Source: Limnothrix sp. CACIAM 69d (lineage in GTDB: Bacteria; Cyanobacteriota; Cyanobacteriia; CACIAM-69d). From it: a stretch of DNA of 64,000 nt. The stretch covers positions 1-64,000 of the forward strand of contig MKGP02000076.1 of the NCBI GenBank assembly GCA_001913845.2, in the 5' to 3' direction. Position numbers and translations under genes: made by a program. The notes beneath the pieces are model-generated. The model had not been told where the DNA came from and searched no databases. It saw only the letters and a list, made by a program, of their open reading frames with translations. Shown in pieces: positions 43,059 to 56,632 of the stretch (the stretch's first letter is position 1; the number at the start of each line of letters is the position of its first letter).

Positions 43059-43454
43059 GGGGCTGTCACGGTTTCGACGTGCTGGGAACAGGTACTGAGT
43101 GATGCAGGCCGAGAGCGGGCTAACTCTCGTAAATCAATGGCTCAAAAAAGTAGATGCGAACAACATCGTTCCTTTCGCTCGCAAGACTGTGGCTGTTGCC
43201 TAAGTTTTGTAACACCTCTAACTAGACGGTTGAGCACTCGCTGTCCGACTCCGTTAAGGTCACCGAGTTTAACCCCAACGGATGCGCTGTCCGGTCTTCT
43301 TCGGTTGGCCTGCTAGCAAAGACTTTAATCGAGGCATCCTACCGCTAGGGATTAAGTAGCGGTTCCCGTCTCAAGGGTCAGCGAGACTAAGCCTGTGAAT
43401 GAACAAGGTATAACTACTTGGTGCGGACGATGGGTTCGACTCCCTCCAGCTCCA
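43059..43454 (+). ncRNA. ssrA: tmRNA (ssrA), one-piece
   Basis: The 5' end GGGGCTGTCACGGTTTCGAC and 3' end with T-arm GGGTTCGACTCCC and acceptor strand CAGCTCC pair as the tRNA-like acceptor stem (7 bp with one G-U). The CCA is not encoded. The tag reading frame at 43156-43203 gives ANNIVPFARKTVAVA and TAA; ANNIV is the usual cyanobacterial opening. The RNA rescues stalled ribosomes with SmpB and marks the nascent chain for proteolysis. It is a contiguous, not permuted, tmRNA of about 396 nt. Confidence 0.95.
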
Positions 43455-43529
43455 CTCCGTTGCGGTTAATCACTGATTGCTAACCAAAAGCTAGTTATCT
43501 GATTAGCAAGCCAACGAACTAACTAACTC

Positions 43530-46147: not shown

Positions 46148-49100
46148 CTAAAGGGACAGGGTGCGACGCTTGGCCACCAGGCGGTAAGCCTCGATGATGT
46201 CGCCCATTTGCCAGTCGTTGAAACCCGAGGAGTTCACACCGCACTCGTAGCCGCTGTTCACTTCCTTGGTGTCTTCCTTGAACCGCTTCAGTGAATCCAT
46301 GCGACCTTGGAACACCAGTTCCTTGCCTCGGCGCACCCGCAGCAGACAATCGCGAATCAGCTTGCCCGACTGCACATAGCAACCGGCCACCGTGCCGCGA
46401 CCCACCGGGAACACACCCCGAACTTCCGCTTGACCCAGGGGTTCTTCCACCTCTTCCGGATCGAGCATCCCTTCCATGGCGGCTTGGATGTCGTCCAGCA
46501 GTTTGTAGATCACGCTGTATTCGCGGACATCAATGCCCGCTTCGTCGGCGGAGCGACGAGCACCGGGCGCGAGGGTGGTGTTGAAGCCCACAACCACGGC
46601 GCTACTGGCGGCAGCCAGGTCAATATCCGTTTCGGAGATTTCGCCTGGTGCAGCCAACAGCACGCGCACTTGCACTTCGTTTTGGGGCAGTTGTTGCAAA
46701 GATCCCAGAATGGCTTCCAGGGAGCCTTGCACATCGGCCTTGAGCACGAGGTTCAGTTCCTTCAGCTCGCCCTCCTGTGCCTGGCCAGAAATGCTGGTGA
46801 GGCTGACGCGACGGGAAGCCATGGCCTGTTGCAGACGGCTTTGGCGCTGTTGGTCGCTCCGTTGAGAGGCGATCGCCCGGGCATCTTTTTCATTGGAGAA
46901 GACCTCAAATTCTTCCCCAGCGGCCGGAACTTCGCTCAGACCCAACACCTCAACGGCGAAGGAAGGGGTGGCGGCATCCACGCGGTTACCGCGATCATCA
47001 ATCATCGCCCGCACCTTACCCAGGGCTGGGCCAGCGAGGAGGATGTCGCCAACTCGCAGGGTTCCGTTTTGCACCAGCAGGGTGGCCACCGGACCACGGG
47101 CCCGATCAAGGTGGGCTTCAATGACCGTCCCGCGCGCCAGGCGATCAGGATTGGCCATCAAGTCTTCCACTTCTGCCACCAACAGCAGGTTCTCCAGCAG
47201 GTCATCCAAATAGAGACCCTTGAGAGCGCTCACGGGAACCATAATCGTGTCCCCGCCCCACTCTTCCGCCACTAGGCCGCGCTCGGCCAGTTCCTGCTTC
47301 ACCCGATCGGGGTTTGCACCTTCCTTGTCAATCTTGTTAATGGCCACCACGATCGGCACTTCCGCCGCGCGGGCATGGCTGAGCGCCTCGATCGTTTGGG
47401 GTTGTACCCCGTCATCGGCTGCCACCACCAAAATGGCAATGTCCGTGACCCGCGCTCCCCGAGCACGCATGGCCGTGAAGGCTTCGTGACCCGGCGTATC
47501 CAAGAAGACCACCTTCTTGCTGCCGCCCTCTTGGTCTACCTCCACGTGGTAAGCCCCAATGTGCTGGGTAATGCCACCGGCTTCCCCTTGGGCCACCTTG
47601 GTTTTGCGGATCGAGTCGAGCAGGGTGGTTTTCCCGTGGTCCACGTGACCCATGATCGTGACAACCGGCGGGCGACGCTGGAGGCTTTCCAGGTCGGCCA
47701 CATCGAGCATTTCGGTTACCTTGCGGGCTTCCGATTCTTTCTCGGCGGTTTCCACCATTACCCCCAACTCTTCGGCCACCATGGTGGCCGTCGGCACATC
47801 GAGGGTTTGGGTAATGCTGACGGCCATCCCTTTCAGGAACAGGCGCTTCACCACTTCCGTTTCTGGAACCGCCAGTTTTTCGGCCAACTCGGCCACCGTC
47901 AGTCCCTCCGTGAGGGTAATCAGCTCCGGCCGTTCCTTCTTGACCTGTTGTTCCCGACGTTCCCGTTGAGGCGGGCGCGAGGCCCCTTTCTTGGTAACCG
48001 GCTTGGGCTGTGGAGCTGGCTTCGGCGGGGTAACACCCTTGGGTTTTGGCGGCCGGGCGATCGAGAGGCTGACCTGGAAGGGAGCCGGTTGACCGTCCAC
48101 CCCTTCCATCATCAGTTCATCATCTTCTTCGAAGTCGTCTTCGTCTTCGAATTCCACCTGGTTACGGCGCTTGTTCTTGCCAGCCTTGTCCTTGGCAATT
48201 CTGGCCCGCTCTTCCTCTTCCGCTTCCCAATCTTTGCCCTTCTTGGTGGGGCGATTCAGGGTCGGCCGATTCAGCTTGTTTTCATAATCTTCGCCGCTGC
48301 TGGCCGGACGTGTGGGTTTTTCCAGCAGTTTGGCCGCAGGGGCTGCGGCCGTGCCATCAGCGCTACCGTCGGCTGCGGCTTCGGTGGGGCGCACGGGTTT
48401 CGGCCGGCGCAACTCCACGATGGTTGGCGGGGCCCCTTTGCTAGGGCCACCGGCTGCGGGGCCTTTGGCCTCGCCGGGCCGGGTGGGACGAGATGGGCGA
48501 CTGGGCGCACCTGCGCGGGGTTCAGCGGGCTTACTTTCAGCGGGCTTTGCCGGCCGCGATGGCGGCCCCACCAACTCGGGCTTCTTGACCGGGCGCGGCG
48601 TGGCGGCAGTGCCGGGACGGGGCGGGGTTTTCAGTTCAGCTTTCTTTTCGGCAATGGGTTCCGGTGTTGCCGAGGCGGCGGGGCGATCGCCCGAGGCGGC
48701 GGGGCGGCGGGGGGCGCTGGGTTCAGCCGGGGCCAGGTCAACCGGGGCCGCGGGGGGCGCTGCGGGCGGATCGGACGGCTGGGCGGGGACATTCACAGGA
48801 GCAACGGTTTCGGGCTGGGCCGCCTCAGGCTTGGTCGCTTCGGGGCGAGCGGGTTCGGCCCGCTTGGGCGAAACGAGTTTCGGGGGGGCAGGACGGCTGA
48901 CGGGGGGCGTGGCTTCGGGGGCTGCTCCTTCGGTGTTGGGGCGTAGCTTTGGTTTGCGAATCTCGAGAATTTGCTGCTTTTTTTGCATAGCCGGTGCTGA
49001 ATCGCGCCCTTCTGTGGGCGTATCGGAGGGGGACAAATCAGGAGGGTTGGAGGAGGCTGGATTCACCGAGGGTGCAGAGGATTGGCCAGGACTGGAGGGC

Positions 49101-49282
49101 GCAGGACGATTCGCAAACTGTTGACGAGCGGCTGCGCGGATTTGAGCGGCTTCAGATTCGGTGATGGTGCTGCTGTGGCTTTTGAAGGGAATGTTTAGTT
49201 GCTCGCAGATCACCAAGATCTCGCGATTTTCCAGATGTAGTTCTCTCGCTAAATCGTAAATTCTCACGCGGCCTGTGCTCAT
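46148..49282 (-). CDS. infB: Translation initiation factor IF-2
   Basis: A 1044-residue GTPase that places fMet-tRNA on the 30S subunit and promotes subunit joining. An IF2 N-terminal domain ([18 protein letters not shown]) is followed by about 370 residues of Pro/Ala/Lys-rich low complexity, then a second IF2_N-like segment, the G domain ([27 protein letters not shown]) and domains II-IV. The long N-terminal linker is characteristic of cyanobacterial IF-2. It is the last gene of the rimP-nusA-ylxR-infB group. Large open frames on the opposite strand here are mirror artefacts of the biased composition. Confidence 0.97.
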
Positions 49283-49689: not shown

Positions 49690-51219
49690 TCAATTGGCCT
49701 CCTGATCCAGCGCCTCGCGATCCGGATCGTCGCCGTCGAAGTCCTCGTCTGCGGAGTCGTTCTCGGTTAGATCATCAGGGTCTGAATCATCGCTGTCTTG
49801 ATCGTCTTCCTCTTGATCATCATCGTCAGCGTCCGCCGCCGAGTCCAGGGAAGCCTGCTCTTGATCGTCCTCAAGATCATCGCCATCAAACTCATCCTCT
49901 GTTTCATCGTCTGTGGCTGCCGATGGGTCAATCTCCCCAGGGCTGAACTCAGCGTCCTCGTCTGCAAAGTCGTCGGTTTCCGGTTCCTCGTCTGCAAAGT
50001 CGTCGGCCGCTTCGGCCGCTGCCAGGGCGAGGGCTGCCTCCCGTTCCGCCAGATAGCTGGCCATCTTGGCATCTTCTTCGTCGCGATCGTACTTAGCCAC
50101 ATCGCGAATATCGATTTTCCAGCCCGTGAGTCGGGCGGCTAGGCGCACATTTTGCCCCTCTTTCCCGATCGCCAAACTGAGCTGATCATCACCCACTAGC
50201 ACATGGGCTTGGCGCTCCTCAGGATTCATCAGACGCACTTCCACCACCCGGGCCGGGCTGAGGGCGTTGGCGATGTAGGTGGCCGGATCCGGTGACCAGC
50301 GAATCACATCGATTTTTTCGCCCCGCAGTTCGTTCACAACCACCTGAATTCGCGACCCCCGGGCCCCAATGCAAGCCCCCACGGGATCCACGTCTCGCTC
50401 CACCGTGTCAACGGCAATCTTGGTGCGCGGGCCCACATGGCGCGAGGGCGGGTTGGCTTCCCGAGCTACGGCCACAATTCGCACAATGTCATCTTCAATT
50501 TCCGGCACTTCGTTGGCGAACAGATAAACCACCAACCCCGCATCGGCCCGGGAAACCAAGAGTTGCGGCCCCCGCTGGGATCCTTCGCAAACTTTCTTGA
50601 GGTAGACCTTGATGGTTCCGTTGGCGCGGTAAGTGTCGTTGGGCAACTGCTCCCGTTTGGGCAGTTCCGCTTCCACTTCCGGTTGGCTGTAGCCGCTGGT
50701 GACGGCCACAATGACCGATTGGCGCTCGAACCGCAGGATGCGCCCTTGGAGCACCGTGCTTTCTAGCTCTTGGAATTCCTCCTGGATCAGCTTGCGCTGC
50801 TGGTCGCGCAGCTTTTGGGCCAGCACTTGCTTGGTTTGGATGGCGGCCATGCGCCCAAAGTCATCCCGATCGGGGGTGACATCCAAAATCACCGTGTCGC
50901 CCAGTTGCGCTTCGGCGGCCACTTCTTGCACATCGCTGAGGGCAATTTCGTGGTCTGGGTCAGCCACTTCTTCCACAATGCTCTTGGTGGCCAAAACCCG
51001 GAAGCCTTCTTCTTCCGTGTCCAATTCCACGTCGAAGTTGTCGAAGTAGGTTTCGTCAAAGATGTTGCGCACATCCAAACTTTGGGTGCGGCGATAACGC
51101 TCATAGCCCTTGAGCAGGGCCTCACGCAGGGCGGCTTCAACGGCGGTTTTTGGCAAGTTGCGTTCGCGGCTGATGCCGTCGATCATTTCTTGCAGGCCGG
51201 TTAGGCGAACCATGGACAT
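49690..51219 (-). CDS. nusA: Transcription termination/antitermination factor NusA
   Basis: A 509-residue protein. The N-terminal RNA-polymerase-binding domain (MSMVRLTGLQEMIDGISRER), S1 domain (about 130-205) and two KH domains (ending near LRLAARLTGWKIDIRDVAKY, about residue 375) are present. NusA controls pausing, termination and antitermination. A tail of about 110 residues is extremely acidic (Asp/Glu-rich with repeated DDFADE units). The start ATG 51219 is chosen by homology; an upstream extension in the same frame looks non-coding. Second gene of the operon. Confidence 0.95.
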   Translation of the reverse strand: MSMVRLTGLQEMIDGISRERNLPKTAVEAALREALLKGYERYRRTQSLDVRNIFDETYFDNFDVELDTEEEGFRVLATKSIVEEVADPDHEIALSDVQEVAAEAQLGDTVILDVTPDRDDFGRMAAIQTKQVLAQKLRDQQRKLIQEEFQELESTVLQGRILRFERQSVIVAVTSGYSQPEVEAELPKREQLPNDTYRANGTIKVYLKKVCEGSQRGPQLLVSRADAGLVVYLFANEVPEIEDDIVRIVAVAREANPPSRHVGPRTKIAVDTVERDVDPVGACIGARGSRIQVVVNELRGEKIDVIRWSPDPATYIANALSPARVVEVRLMNPEERQAHVLVGDDQLSLAIGKEGQNVRLAARLTGWKIDIRDVAKYDRDEEDAKMASYLAEREAALALAAAEAADDFADEEPETDDFADEDAEFSPGEIDPSAATDDETEDEFDGDDLEDDQEQASLDSAADADDDDQEEDDQDSDDSDPDDLTENDSADEDFDGDDPDREALDQEAN

Positions 51220-51335: not shown

Positions 51336-51800
51336 CTACTCGGCTCCGTCGGCCAGGCGCACCCGTTCCACCAAATCGCGCGGAATGCTGATCACTCGGC
51401 CTTTTTGGTTGATGCGCAGGGTTTCCGCGTCGCGATCGAGCAAGCTGCCCTGCCAAAGGGATTTGCCCTTGTGTGGCTCGCGGGTGGTGACGGTGACTTC
51501 AAACCCCTTGAAGGAGGTGAACTCCCGATCGGTCTCCAAAAACTCCGACAGGCCAGGGCTAGACACTTCCAGCACGTAGGCTCCGGGGATGGCATCCGCC
51601 TCATCGAGCGCTGGCTCCAAGGCCCGGCTCAACCGTTCGCAGTCATCCAGACTGGTATCGGCGATCGGGTTGCGGAGTTCGAGGCGCAAAACAGGGGGGC
51701 TTTCGTTGGTGTGGAAGGTTGCCCCCACGATCTCCAGTCCCAAATCGGTGGCGATCGGGGTGGCAAGTTCCAAAATGCGGGGAATTGCGGGATGAGCCAT
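51336..51800 (-). CDS. rimP: Ribosome maturation factor RimP
   Basis: A 154-residue factor for 30S subunit maturation. Motifs are LGLEIVGATFH, SLDDCERLSRALEPALDE and YVLEVSSPGLSEFLETDREF, characteristic of RimP, followed by an SH3-like C-terminal half. ATG 51800 (MAHPAIPRI) is chosen over an upstream start at 51824. It is first of the operon; the long upstream region holds a probable separate RNA gene. Confidence 0.93.
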   Translation of the reverse strand: MAHPAIPRILELATPIATDLGLEIVGATFHTNESPPVLRLELRNPIADTSLDDCERLSRALEPALDEADAIPGAYVLEVSSPGLSEFLETDREFTSFKGFEVTVTTREPHKGKSLWQGSLLDRDAETLRINQKGRVISIPRDLVERVRLADGAE

Positions 51801-52079
51801 GAAACCAAACGATAGAGCGGGCAATGGCTCCCAACCGCGTGATCAGTGATCCGGCCCGAAGGGAAACGGGGCCGATCGCGCTTGCGGATCTGTCCCCAGA
51901 ATCGTGCCTAAGTATCGTGCCTAAGTAACGACGCTCTGAGATGAATCCGGCAAGATCACCGTTGGGGAAATTGCCCTTGAGTGAGGGCATGGGGCGTGGT
52001 CAGACAGAGCACCAAGCAATCAAAGTGCAGAGCCATGCTGATCACAACCCATGGAGGGAGCTGATCCCCATTGGGCCAT
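51801..52079. other. Region between the candidate RNA and rimP
   Basis: ATCGTGCCTAAGT is directly repeated at 51901-51913 and 51914-51926, about 100 bp before rimP. A promoter for rimP is expected here, but none is convincing by eye. If no promoter exists, the RNA upstream would be an operon leader with an attenuator. Confidence 0.45.
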
Positions 52080-52107
52080 AAAAAAAGCCGGTTCACTGTA
52101 CCGACTT
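52080..52107 (-). terminator. Intrinsic terminator of the candidate RNA
   Basis: On the minus strand AAGTCGGT pairs with ACCGGCTT (8 bp, one G-U), loop ACAGTGA, followed by a run of T down to 52080. Textbook rho-independent form. Confidence 0.85.
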
Positions 52108-52343
52108 GCAACGCGCCAATTGACCTTTCCTTGCCGCTGGCCGGGAAAGGCTGGTGGGCAAAGGCTGGAGGCGATGGGTCTAGACACCCGCACAGCAGCC
52201 GCAACCGAACGCAAGGGAGGTTGAGATGCTGCTGTGGTGGGGCCTGGGGCCCAAGCGTTTGCGGTTGCCGCACTGTTACCCAAAGTCCGAAGCGGGAAGC
52301 CAAGGCTCAAAGCCGGGAACTTGGGGAATAGCTAGGCAGCGCT
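52080..52343 (-). ncRNA. Candidate structured RNA upstream of rimP
   Basis: About 264 nt bounded by a promoter-like sequence and a strong intrinsic terminator, with no plausible protein. Several hairpins are visible on the minus strand: AGGCA/TGCCT; CCAAG/CTTGG around GGCT/AGCC; TGCGG/CCGCA; a long one with CACAGCAGC/GCTGCTGTG (52228-52236 with 52191-52199) and inner CAACC/GGTTG; and CCTTTCC/GGAAAGG (52144-52150 with 52124-52130, approximate). I do not recognise the family. It could be an independent small RNA, for example a 6S-like RNA, or the attenuated leader of the rimP-nusA-infB operon. Confidence 0.6.
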
Positions 52344-52349
52344 TGCCTC

Positions 52350-52377
52350 AGTCTATCACGGAAGAATTTGGGTCTAA
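52350..52377 (-). promoter_or_regulatory. Sigma-70-like promoter of the candidate RNA
   Basis: TTAGAC (52372-52377) and TAGACT (52350-52355) on the minus strand are separated by 16 bp and resemble the -35 TTGACA and -10 TATAAT boxes. Transcription would begin near 52343. Confidence 0.5.
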
Positions 52378-52501
52378 AACTCTGCCCTGTTGGGGCGTGC
52401 TAAATTTGCCCAACGGGATTGGCTGAACGGGATTGGCTGAACTGGGCTAGCTGAACTGGATTTGGAACTAAACCCAGTGAGCCTGCATGATTTAGCCTGC
52501 A

Positions 52502-54076
52502 TTAATTTGAGTAATTGGGCTGATTGGGATCAGAAAACGGTAACGGCTCGGCCCGGCCAGCCCCATCTACCCCCAACACCCGTCGCAGGGCTGCCAATTG
52601 GGCATGGGCCTTCGAGAGCGATTCCCACCACTCCCGATCGGGGTCGGAGTCAGCCACAATCCCCGCGCCCACCTGGCCCCAAGCCAGTCGATCACCCAAT
52701 GGCGAATCTCCCGATCGTTCCGTGCGGGGAATCAACAGCGTCCGAATCAGAATATTCAGATCCAAATTACCGCGCACATCCAGGTAACCACAGGAGCCAT
52801 AGAACAAACTACGGCGCACCGGCTCCAGGGCTTCAATGATTTCCATGCAGCGCACCTTCGGACAACCGGTGATTGTGCCGCCGGGGAAAGTCGCCCGAAT
52901 CAGGTCGATCGCCGTGCGATCGGGCGCAAGTTGTCCCACCACGTTGCTCACCAAGTGCATCACGTGGCTGTAGCGCTCCACGGTCAAGAACTCATCTACC
53001 TGTACAGTGCCCCAATCGCAAACCCGCCCCAGATCATTGCGCTCCAAATCCACCAACATGGCATGTTCAGCCCGTTCCTTGGGGTGGTTCAGTAATTCCA
53101 CCTCGTTGGCCAAATCAGCGGGGCGATCGATCCCTCGGGGGCGGGTTCCCGCGATCGGGCGAGTGCTGGCCTGACGATCGCGCAATTGCACCAACCGCTC
53201 CGGTGAACAGCTCACCACCTCACCCCAAGGGGTTTGCCAATAGCTGGCGAAGGGAGAGGGATTAATTTGGCGCAGGGCCTGATAAAGCGTCCAACCGCTG
53301 GCGGGGCAAGGAACCGAAAACCGCAGGGACAAATTAGCCTGGAAAATATCCCCCGCACGGATGTGCTCTTGGGCTTGGCGAACGGCGGCGGTATAGGCGG
53401 CTTGGTCGCTGGTGAATTGGGGGGTGAGGGTGCTGGTTGGTTCGATCGCCCCCGACGATTCCGCCAGCGGGGGTGTTGCGGCAGCTTTGTCTAGTTGGGC
53501 CACGAGCCGATCGAGATCCGCCGCCACCGTCGCCGCCAGCCACAGCCGATCGCCCTCGTGATCCAACACCGCAAAGCAATCTGGCTCATACCAAAAGGCC
53601 ACGGGAAACGGCAACTCATCCGATCGCAATTGGGGCAACTGCTCCACCTCCCAAGCCAGGTCATAGCCCAGCCAACCCAGCCAACCTCCCCGAAACGGCA
53701 ACGCTGGCCCCGGTTCATCCGGAGAAGCATTCAGCCGCTCCGCTGCCCCGCCTTCCGCCAGTCGATCGCCCAACATGGGCAAAATGTCCCCCACTGCCGG
53801 AGTCCAAACCCGCCCCGATCGGGGACGACCCGCACAAATCGAATAGCGAGCTAACTCCTGGGCCGCCGCACACCACCGCTCCGGCGCAGGGGGACTTTCC
53901 AACAAAACTGCAATTTCCCCCCGGGCCAGCTCTTCCGCAAACAAGGCCGCAAACACCGCCGACCCCGAGCGATCGGCCAGCGGGAGCGATCGCCAGTGCC
54001 AGGGAGCCAACGGCCGGGCCGTTAATTTCGCCAAGCCAGAATTCACCGTTGCGATCACTGAAGCCGCCGAATTCAT
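52502..54076 (-). CDS. Anthranilate/aminodeoxychorismate synthase component I
   Basis: A 524-residue chorismate-utilising enzyme (TrpE/PabB family). The catalytic domain has SLRFSVPCP, SCSPERLVQL, PIAGTRPRG, DLERNDLGRVC and GGTITGCPKVRCMEIIEALEP. PIAGT is the TrpE-type form of the motif where many PabB enzymes have a lysine (PIKGT), while TGCPK and the protein's overall build resemble PabB. It could therefore make anthranilate or 4-amino-4-deoxychorismate; sequence alone does not settle this. A partner glutamine amidotransferase is not adjacent. Confidence 0.88.
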   Translation of the reverse strand: MNSAASVIATVNSGLAKLTARPLAPWHWRSLPLADRSGSAVFAALFAEELARGEIAVLLESPPAPERWCAAAQELARYSICAGRPRSGRVWTPAVGDILPMLGDRLAEGGAAERLNASPDEPGPALPFRGGWLGWLGYDLAWEVEQLPQLRSDELPFPVAFWYEPDCFAVLDHEGDRLWLAATVAADLDRLVAQLDKAAATPPLAESSGAIEPTSTLTPQFTSDQAAYTAAVRQAQEHIRAGDIFQANLSLRFSVPCPASGWTLYQALRQINPSPFASYWQTPWGEVVSCSPERLVQLRDRQASTRPIAGTRPRGIDRPADLANEVELLNHPKERAEHAMLVDLERNDLGRVCDWGTVQVDEFLTVERYSHVMHLVSNVVGQLAPDRTAIDLIRATFPGGTITGCPKVRCMEIIEALEPVRRSLFYGSCGYLDVRGNLDLNILIRTLLIPRTERSGDSPLGDRLAWGQVGAGIVADSDPDREWWESLSKAHAQLAALRRVLGVDGAGRAEPLPFSDPNQPNYSN

Positions 54077-54380: not shown

Positions 54381-55289
54381 TTAGCCGACTTTCACCGTAG
54401 CCCGTTGCCGACGGGTGGCCACCGCAGCGCCCACAGCCGCCAAACCCAACAGGGAAATCGGTTCCGGCGTGGATGCTTCCTTCTTCGGAGCCAAGTTGCC
54501 GCGCACAGCCATCCCATCGTTCAGGCATTCGGCGAAAACGTGGGCCACAAAATCACCCACCATCCCTTCGCCCCGGGTGAACTTAAAGCCAAATGTCTGG
54601 CGAGTTGCGCCACCCGCATCGCTTTGGACCGGCGTTGCACCACCCAGCGCACCATTCAGGTTGAAGCCCAAAGCCGACAAAGCCGCGCTATCAAGCGCTT
54701 CAAACACTGACCCCACCACCTGTTGTCCTTGGGTAATCACACCCAAGGAAGCGTCTTTGAAGTAGGTCTTGGCTTCCGCATCGGTCAGCTCACCCGCACT
54801 GGGCAAACCACCGCGATCGCTCACATGCTTCGACTGCTCGGCGTAGGAACCGAACCCTTGGTTGCTCTTACCCACGTTTTTGCCTGAAACGGCACTGTAC
54901 AGACCCAAAGGCTTCACCGATGAATCATTGTTGCTGGCAAAGCGCACACCGAACAGACTGCCCTGAGCGTTCAGCAGCGGGTTACCGGTGAAGTTAAAGA
55001 ACAGGTCTCCCCAGGCGATCGAACCGTTGGTGACTCCGCCGGTTGCCATCCCCATCAGCGGCAGGCGGGCATCAATTCCCACATAGATGGTCTCGCCATC
55101 TTGCTTGATCCCCAAACCGTACATCTCAAACAGGCCGCCGACGTTGCCGTTGCTCACGCCATCTTTAAAGGAGTCAATCCCATAATTCCAGCCGTTATAG
55201 ACCGTGCCTGCGTTGGCTGCTTGTAGTCCCATTCCGAAAGTGCAGAGGGTGGCAGTGGCAACACCGGCAAAGATTTGCTGAATTTTCAT
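54381..55289 (-). CDS. PEP-CTERM surface protein (first of a tandem pair)
   Basis: A 302-residue exported protein. A signal peptide (about 1-27, ending AANA) precedes a mature part opening GTVYNGWNYGIDSFKDG. The C-terminus has the PEP-CTERM sorting signal: TPEP, a hydrophobic stretch (ISLLGLAAVGAAVA) and basic TRRQR. Exosortase would cut near PEP and anchor the protein at the surface, often with exopolysaccharide. The body has a pattern shared by cyanobacterial exosortase-dependent families; function is unknown. ATG 55289 (MKIQQIF) is chosen. The next gene encodes a close paralogue. Confidence 0.88.
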   Translation of the reverse strand: MKIQQIFAGVATATLCTFGMGLQAANAGTVYNGWNYGIDSFKDGVSNGNVGGLFEMYGLGIKQDGETIYVGIDARLPLMGMATGGVTNGSIAWGDLFFNFTGNPLLNAQGSLFGVRFASNNDSSVKPLGLYSAVSGKNVGKSNQGFGSYAEQSKHVSDRGGLPSAGELTDAEAKTYFKDASLGVITQGQQVVGSVFEALDSAALSALGFNLNGALGGATPVQSDAGGATRQTFGFKFTRGEGMVGDFVAHVFAECLNDGMAVRGNLAPKKEASTPEPISLLGLAAVGAAVATRRQRATVKVG

Positions 55290-55732
55290 GGTCTTTAACG
55301 CTCCCAAAAGACGTTGTAGTGGAGTGAAATACGGTTAATCATCCTGCTCAATCGAATTTTGAGCCTGCTTTTTCTGGTTGGATGGTCAACATCGGATGTG
55401 CTTGTTACGTTCATTAAAGTCATAACTTCCGGAAAAGATTTTAAAGATTCTGTGAATTCAACTTTTACTTAATGAAGCTGTGATGAAAAGTTCCGTTTAG
55501 CGATCGGACAGTTCCTCAATTCCTTGCGAGATCAAAATTTTAATGATTTTTCAAGAACGCCAAATTCTCAGCTCAAAGCAACTGGGGCGATGAGCTGGCT
55601 TCTGGGAAACTGCCGCTCGATCGCCCCGGGTTGATGGATTGCTGAATTTCGTCGGGTGTGGCTCAGGCGAAAACTAAGCCAAGGTTGCCAAGATCAGCCC
55701 ATTAGATTAGCCCTTTCGACCAGTCAGTTCAA
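55290..55732. other. Intergenic region between PEP-CTERM paralogues
   Basis: 443 bp holding the promoter of the 54381-55289 gene and the 3' end of its paralogue. No hairpin with a T-run is evident after the 55733 stop. The half near 55300-55560 is AT-rich. Confidence 0.45.
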
Positions 55733-56632
55733 TTAACCAACCTTAGCCGCACGGTAGCGACGAGTGGCCACCGCAGCACCCACAGCCGCCAGGCCCAACA
55801 GGGAAACGGGTTCCGGCGTGGGTTCCGGCTTCGGAGCCAAGTTGCCCCGCACAGCCATCCCATCGTTCAAACATTCTGCGAAGACGTGGGCCACAAAGTC
55901 ACCCACCATCCCTTCGCCCCGGGTGAACTTAAAGCCAAAAGTTTGCCGTGTTGCACCGTTGGCATTGCTTTCCGGGGGCTTGGCACCATTCAATGCGCCA
56001 TTCAGGTTAAAGCCCAAGGCCGACAGGGTGGCGCTGTCGAGGGATTCAAACACCGATTCCACCACCTGTTGTCCTTTGTTGATCACGTTCAGCGATGCAT
56101 CTTTGAAATAAACCTTGGCTTCCGCGTCGGTCAGTTCGCCCATGCCAGCGATGCCCTTGGCACCGGTCACATATTTCGACTGATCGGCATAGGATGCAAA
56201 CCCACGGTTTTGGCTGGCAACGTTCTTGCCGCTGACTTGGCTATAGAGGCCCAAGGGTTTCACGGCTGAATCATTGGTGCTGGCGAAGCGAACGCCGAAC
56301 AAATTTCCTTGGGCGTTCAGGAGCGGGTTGCCACTGAAGTTAAAGAACATGTCGCCCCAGGTGATGGACTTGTTGAGCGCACCATTATCGAGCTGACCGG
56401 TAATCGGTAACCGTGCATCGATGCCGACGTAGATGGTTTCGCCGTCTTGCTTAATCCCGAAGCCATACATTTCAAACATCCCACCCAGAGAGCCGCTCAC
56501 GCCGTCTTTGAAGGAATCAATGCCGTAATTCCAGCCGTTGTAAACCGTGCCTGCGTTGGCTGCTTGCAAACCAACGCCCAGGGTGCAGAGGGTGGCGGTT
56601 GCGATGCTGGCTAAAAGTTGTTGAGGTTTCAT
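55733..56632 (-). CDS. PEP-CTERM surface protein (second of a tandem pair)
   Basis: A 299-residue paralogue of the 54381-55289 product, very similar throughout: signal peptide, GTVYNGWNYGIDSFKDG opening, EMYGFGIKQDGETIYVGIDAR, TFGFKFTRGEGMVGDFVAHVF, and a PEPVSLLGLAAVGAAVATRR-type sorting end. The differences lie mainly in the middle and in the linker before PEP (KPEPT here, KKEAST in the other). The pair arose by tandem duplication. Confidence 0.88.
   Translation of the reverse strand: MKPQQLLASIATATLCTLGVGLQAANAGTVYNGWNYGIDSFKDGVSGSLGGMFEMYGFGIKQDGETIYVGIDARLPITGQLDNGALNKSITWGDMFFNFSGNPLLNAQGNLFGVRFASTNDSAVKPLGLYSQVSGKNVASQNRGFASYADQSKYVTGAKGIAGMGELTDAEAKVYFKDASLNVINKGQQVVESVFESLDSATLSALGFNLNGALNGAKPPESNANGATRQTFGFKFTRGEGMVGDFVAHVFAECLNDGMAVRGNLAPKPEPTPEPVSLLGLAAVGAAVATRRYRAAKVG

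Follow-up and report, generated by a model that had tools for sequence, protein, structure and literature searches.

A probable rimP-leader type attenuator upstream of rimP-nusA-infB in Limnothrix, with an altered terminator core pair and an unusually long leader

The region upstream of rimP-nusA-infB in Limnothrix sp. CACIAM 69d very probably forms a 5' leader with a premature intrinsic terminator, that is, a transcription attenuator of the rimP-leader type. The region was analysed as part of a 64,000-nucleotide stretch of contig MKGP02000076.1 (the window), in which the operon is located on the minus strand and comprises rimP as its first gene (51336–51800, with the start at 51800), nusA (49690–51219; the start, at an internal ATG, is approximate) and infB (46148–49282, recognized by eye from the translation). 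The gap upstream of rimP, also on the minus strand, is ~700 bp long and the terminator lies ~280 bp (279 nt) before the gene; both distances, given previously in a sequence-only reading, were confirmed on the window sequence. That reading had left the choice between an independent small RNA and an attenuated leader by which NusA could regulate its own operon. The attenuator is well supported by the order promoter-terminator-rimP, which is conserved across cyanobacteria, and by the precedents of the rimP-leader and of Bacillus subtilis. Comparison of sequences shows a conserved promoter box, a conserved terminator, a fixed order and direction of these elements before rimP, and a core pair whose two sides have changed together.

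The terminator (52107–52080, minus strand) consists of AAGTCGGT-ACAGTGA-ACCGGCTT followed by a T run, with the core pair of the stem flipped to C-G. A single terminator-like match was found in 821 bp of window sequence versus 1.4 in shuffles, a count that is within chance for one sequence; the terminator is taken to be real because it is conserved at the same place in relatives. All 52 bases of the terminator region are unchanged between the genome of the window (G000) and that of G002. A terminator precedes rimP in all four family members in which rimP is assembled (G000/G002, G001, G003 and G004), and the gap shares little between them beyond the -10 region and this terminator. The description of the site as a textbook intrinsic terminator was thus borne out.

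The conservation extends well outside the family. We fetched 83 cyanobacterial loci via RimP or NusA (three of them twice, leaving 80 distinct), and on close examination all 83 had a terminator upstream of rimP. The terminator was at most 450 nt from the gene in 81 loci (compared with 0 antisense and a mean of 0.7 in shuffles) and at 478 and 528 nt in the remaining two; its usual form is GAAGTGGGTnnnnGCCCACTTTTTTT. A class survey covered 107 sampled genomes, of which 102 do not belong to the window's family, and used RGTGGGN(3-11)CCCRCTTTTT as the pattern for the canonical terminator. The pattern occurred 12–471 nt before rimP in at least 69 of these 102 genomes, and 69 of its 100 genome-wide matches sit at rimP. 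A further 20 rimP regions that lack an exact match were read, and several carry divergent hairpins (GGTGGGCAATGTCCCGCC, GTGGGAGCTTTAAAAGAGCCCGC and GAGTGGGTGGTACCCACTTCTTTG). No terminator was found before rimP in the small-genome family f2 and in family f17 (L143, L155, L156, L157, L158, L160 and L161), which suggests loss of leader control in these lineages. A separate conserved terminator, AGTCGGTGACAATCACCGGCTTTTT, was observed in 13 genomes of a single Nostoc-like family (f13, L105–L117), where it is not located at rimP.

The second conserved element is the -10 box TAGACT (52350–52355, minus strand). The bases around it are identical in 30 of 30 positions between G000 and G002, and the box is retained in three of the four family lineages, with TAATCT instead in G004. 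In the other cyanobacteria, 59 of 77 loci carry GnTAnACT where it is expected, versus 1.1 in shuffles, positioned 50–90 nt (median 69 nt) before the terminator. The -35 element is weak whichever hexamer is chosen. TTTAGA (52373–52378, minus strand), 17 nt before the -10 box, agrees with TTGACA at 4 of 6 positions, and TTAGAC, implied by the -35/-10 pair with 16-bp spacing proposed earlier, at only 2 of 6; a consensus promoter scan of the region (821 bp) called no promoter. Judged from the -10 box, transcription would start near 52343. Just upstream of the leader promoter a hairpin element was observed, GCCCnnnnnGGGC followed by RGRGTTTTAGACC (52364–52403, minus strand). A second copy is present in the genome (G000:C100:44555-44571), and related elements occur in G002 and in G025, a member of another family; it is a dispersed repeat that resembles a terminator or the end of a mobile element.

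The terminators of the window's family differ from the canonical form in the core of the stem, where G000, G002, G001, G003 and G004 have a C-G instead of a G-C pair. The change is from GUGGG/CCCAC to GUCGG/CCGGC, accompanied by a neighbouring T-A to T-G; in DNA letters, the family has GTCGGT/ACCGGC where the canonical terminator has GTGGGT/GCCCAC. When 27 distinct terminators are aligned, this pair (6-21) is G-C in 23, C-G in 4 and never unpaired, and the hairpin pairs are kept in 95.9% of the alignment cells, whereas slid controls reached 65.4% at most. Double changes were no more numerous than in shuffles. As the four related species inherited the flip from a single event, it supports the hairpin but gives no tally of independent changes. 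The variant pattern AGTCGGTN(2-10)ACCGGCTTTTT is present as one copy in each of the five family genomes, always at rimP; 15 other genomes among 390 contain a match, away from rimP. A profile of the canonical terminator gave the window site a score of 12.5 bits (E 2.1), the best match in the window but not significant, and the site is absent among the genome-wide matches listed for this profile; a covariance model of the canonical terminator is too short, and depends too strongly on sequence, to detect the variant. The evidence for homology to the canonical terminator is thus its position, the pattern of its stem and the flanking TTTTTTTATTGG, which is common to the terminator of the window's family and, for instance, L020 and Nostoc loci.

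As described by Naville and Gautheret (2010, PMC2965389), the rimP-leader is an intrinsic terminator before rimP-nusA-infB, which in its general form has no visible antiterminator, has a conserved GGGc...gCCC stem core and is reported 4–130 nt before the gene. The element in the window is similar in that an intrinsic terminator lies upstream of, and co-directional with, the same operon, again with no visible antiterminator, and cyanobacteria outside the window's family also keep the GGG...CCC core. It differs in the core of the family (CGGU...ACCG; E 2.1 with the canonical profile), in the distance of 279 nt to rimP, which is outside the reported range, and in the longer leader of the genus. 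The corresponding Rfam family, RF01770 (rimP), likewise describes a terminator upstream of rimP, but gave no match in the window's genome even at E 10, and none at its 47-bit covariance cut-off, a score that was reached in only 1 of 14 control genomes. Since position and working are those of the rimP-leader, whereas the sequence core differs and RF01770 does not match, we call the element a diverged variant of the rimP-leader rather than a new class. No other Rfam family matched the region at its gathering score, and a relaxed threshold gave only matches at chance level; the covariance search proposed in the sequence-only reading thus returned no significant family, including RF01770 and 6S RNA. 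The 6S RNA (RF00013), which the leader resembles in size range only, was rejected: it has no match in the region, and the true 6S RNA is found at G000:C5:31890-32095 (79.7 bits). A tmRNA gene was observed elsewhere in the window (43059–43457, plus strand, tag ANNIVPFARKTVAVA).

In the proposed mechanism, RNA polymerase would start near 52343 behind TAGACT and make a leader RNA of ~264 nt (52080–52343, minus strand), delimited by the conserved -10 box and the conserved terminator. Part of the transcripts would stop at the U run around 52080 and the rest would continue into rimP, nusA and infB. NusA would most likely promote termination at the hairpin and thereby hold its operon in check, with no RNA antiterminator involved. 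Partial termination at this site is expected by analogy. In B. subtilis, NusA stimulates termination in its own 5' leader, an autoregulation demonstrated by experiment (reviewed in PMC12288461). In both systems the 5' leader of the operon with nusA carries an intrinsic terminator, but the stimulation by NusA is experimental in B. subtilis and presumed in the window. In Escherichia coli, rimP is preceded by terminators and its operon is under the control of NusA (PMC6511841); the metY-rimP-nusA-infB leader carries the metY tRNA and several promoters, whereas the leader in the window has no tRNA. The cyanobacterial rimP leaders showed no antiterminator signal (mean z of −0.42; 7% of the loci at p≤0.1), and antiterminator pairing was not above chance either inside or outside the family. 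Pairing with the 5' arm of the terminator appears plausible by eye in some genera (for example, CATTTC-N4-GAAGTG), but overall it did not exceed shuffles and was rejected. Together with the precedents, this points to protein-dependent attenuation, most likely by NusA, the regulator suggested by other bacteria.

It is unlikely that the same attenuator responds to another sensor (RimP, IF2 or a ribosome or RNA factor) or works through an alternative fold of its enlarged leader. The leader of the genus has indeed been enlarged and contains a long hairpin, and the flip suggests no strict requirement for the GGG/CCC sequence; such a flip would be unexpected if NusA read this sequence itself, and NusA does not visibly covary with the flip, as only conservative family-specific substitutions were seen. 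Another sensor is disfavoured by the lack of antiterminator pairing above chance and by NusA being the only sensor known to have experimental support for this kind of leader (PMC12288461). The window leader contains no ATG, so that a leader peptide is unlikely as well, and this candidate was rejected. Quite unlikely, too, is an attenuator that has been rewired in the family, such that recognition would be independent of the GGG/CCC core or the extra 160–180 nt would read a further signal.

These extra nucleotides are poorly conserved sequence by which the leader of the genus has grown. The distance from the -10 box to the terminator is 247 nt in G000 and G002, 228 nt in G001, 99 nt in G003 and 67 nt in G004, versus ~69 nt in most cyanobacteria; the enlarged leader is known from one genus, in three genomes. 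Distances of 203–225 nt also occur at loci of Laspinema, Oscillatoria and Tychonema; length alone is thus not unique to the window's genus. Other filamentous lineages (L041, L047, L049, L050, L059, L060, L068 and L072) have leaders of ~203–225 nt or terminator-rimP spacers of ~230–500 nt, and both lengths have thus changed several times. In the genus, the added sequence may be enclosed by a proposed stem (GCAAACGC with GCGTTGC), which directly adjoins the terminator and is weakly suggested by few sequences; its putative 5' arm, GCAAACGCTTGG (52251–52262, minus strand), is a block conserved in G001, and its putative 3' arm is CAATTGGCGCGTTGC (52108–52122, minus strand). AACGC pairs with GCGTT in the predicted leader fold, and a GCGTT-like block precedes the terminator in all family members, with a partner whose position varies. 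The predicted fold has a minimum free energy of −104.1 compared with −96.3±5.1 for shuffles (z −1.53), and 13 of 200 shuffles were as good; the region, described earlier as dense in hairpins, is not so beyond its composition. Of three paired substitutions one breaks a pair (P 0.26), and a conserved fold of the leader interior was rejected, as neither value is significant. Leader identity between G000 and G002 is 95.5% in the first part and 99.1% in the middle third, but the interior is not conserved in G001, G003 or G004. What is left of the unannotated structured RNA suggested earlier is thus the conserved terminator hairpin.

The state of the interior also bears on the independent small RNA, in which the ~264-nt transcript would act in trans, the terminator would be no more than its 3' end and rimP would have its own promoter in the spacer. 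This reading is decidedly improbable. It could draw on a conserved promoter box and terminator of its own, the near-identical middle third of the leader in G000 and G002 and the long spacer in the window's genus, and a leader that ends at the terminator may likewise be stable; but a transcript whose middle is neither conserved nor significantly folded does not favour it, and the terminator is always tied to rimP, with one variant copy per family genome. Moreover, in many relatives the terminator ends only 10–20 nt before rimP, so that the leader promoter can express the gene by read-through only. Over the other loci this distance is 10–503 nt. The 279-nt spacer of the window (51801–52079, minus strand) is 95.7% identical between G000 and G002, a value not above that for the part of the gap that lies upstream of the promoter (96.3%). 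At this length, rimP could be transcribed from another promoter inside the spacer, in which case the terminator would have no bearing on its expression.

The gene upstream of the leader (52502–54076, minus strand), which looks like anthranilate/aminodeoxychorismate synthase component I when judged by eye, is co-directional with rimP, as is the upstream gene in 58 of 73 loci (ORF heuristic). That the site is merely the ordinary terminator of this upstream operon, unlinked to rimP, would agree with that orientation and with the chance-level count for a single sequence, but is very improbable and was rejected, since the neighbour varies and is divergent in eight loci (by eye, rplT in three, tldD, a DUF389-like protein, an alpha/beta hydrolase, an amino-acid permease and an oxygenase) where the terminator, which thus cannot be that gene's, still precedes rimP, and since a conserved -10 box separates the upstream gene from the terminator. 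Beyond this gene, a tandem pair of secreted proteins that closely resemble each other and have a PEP-CTERM-like C-terminus was seen by eye (54381–55307 and 55733–56632, minus strand).

NusA is a general transcription factor, and early termination in its operon is thought to be the most widespread bacterial attenuator. No description of the rimP-leader in cyanobacteria was found in the literature searched, and the main text of PMC2965389 does not mention cyanobacteria. The comparison presented here shows a rimP-leader element across cyanobacteria, and the element in the window is the cyanobacterial form of this known switch, with an altered core pair in a small family and an unusually long leader in the genus. 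Overall, the flip that one family carries in an otherwise nearly invariant core constitutes a natural experiment, which makes it possible to ask whether NusA recognizes the hairpin by its sequence or by shape alone.
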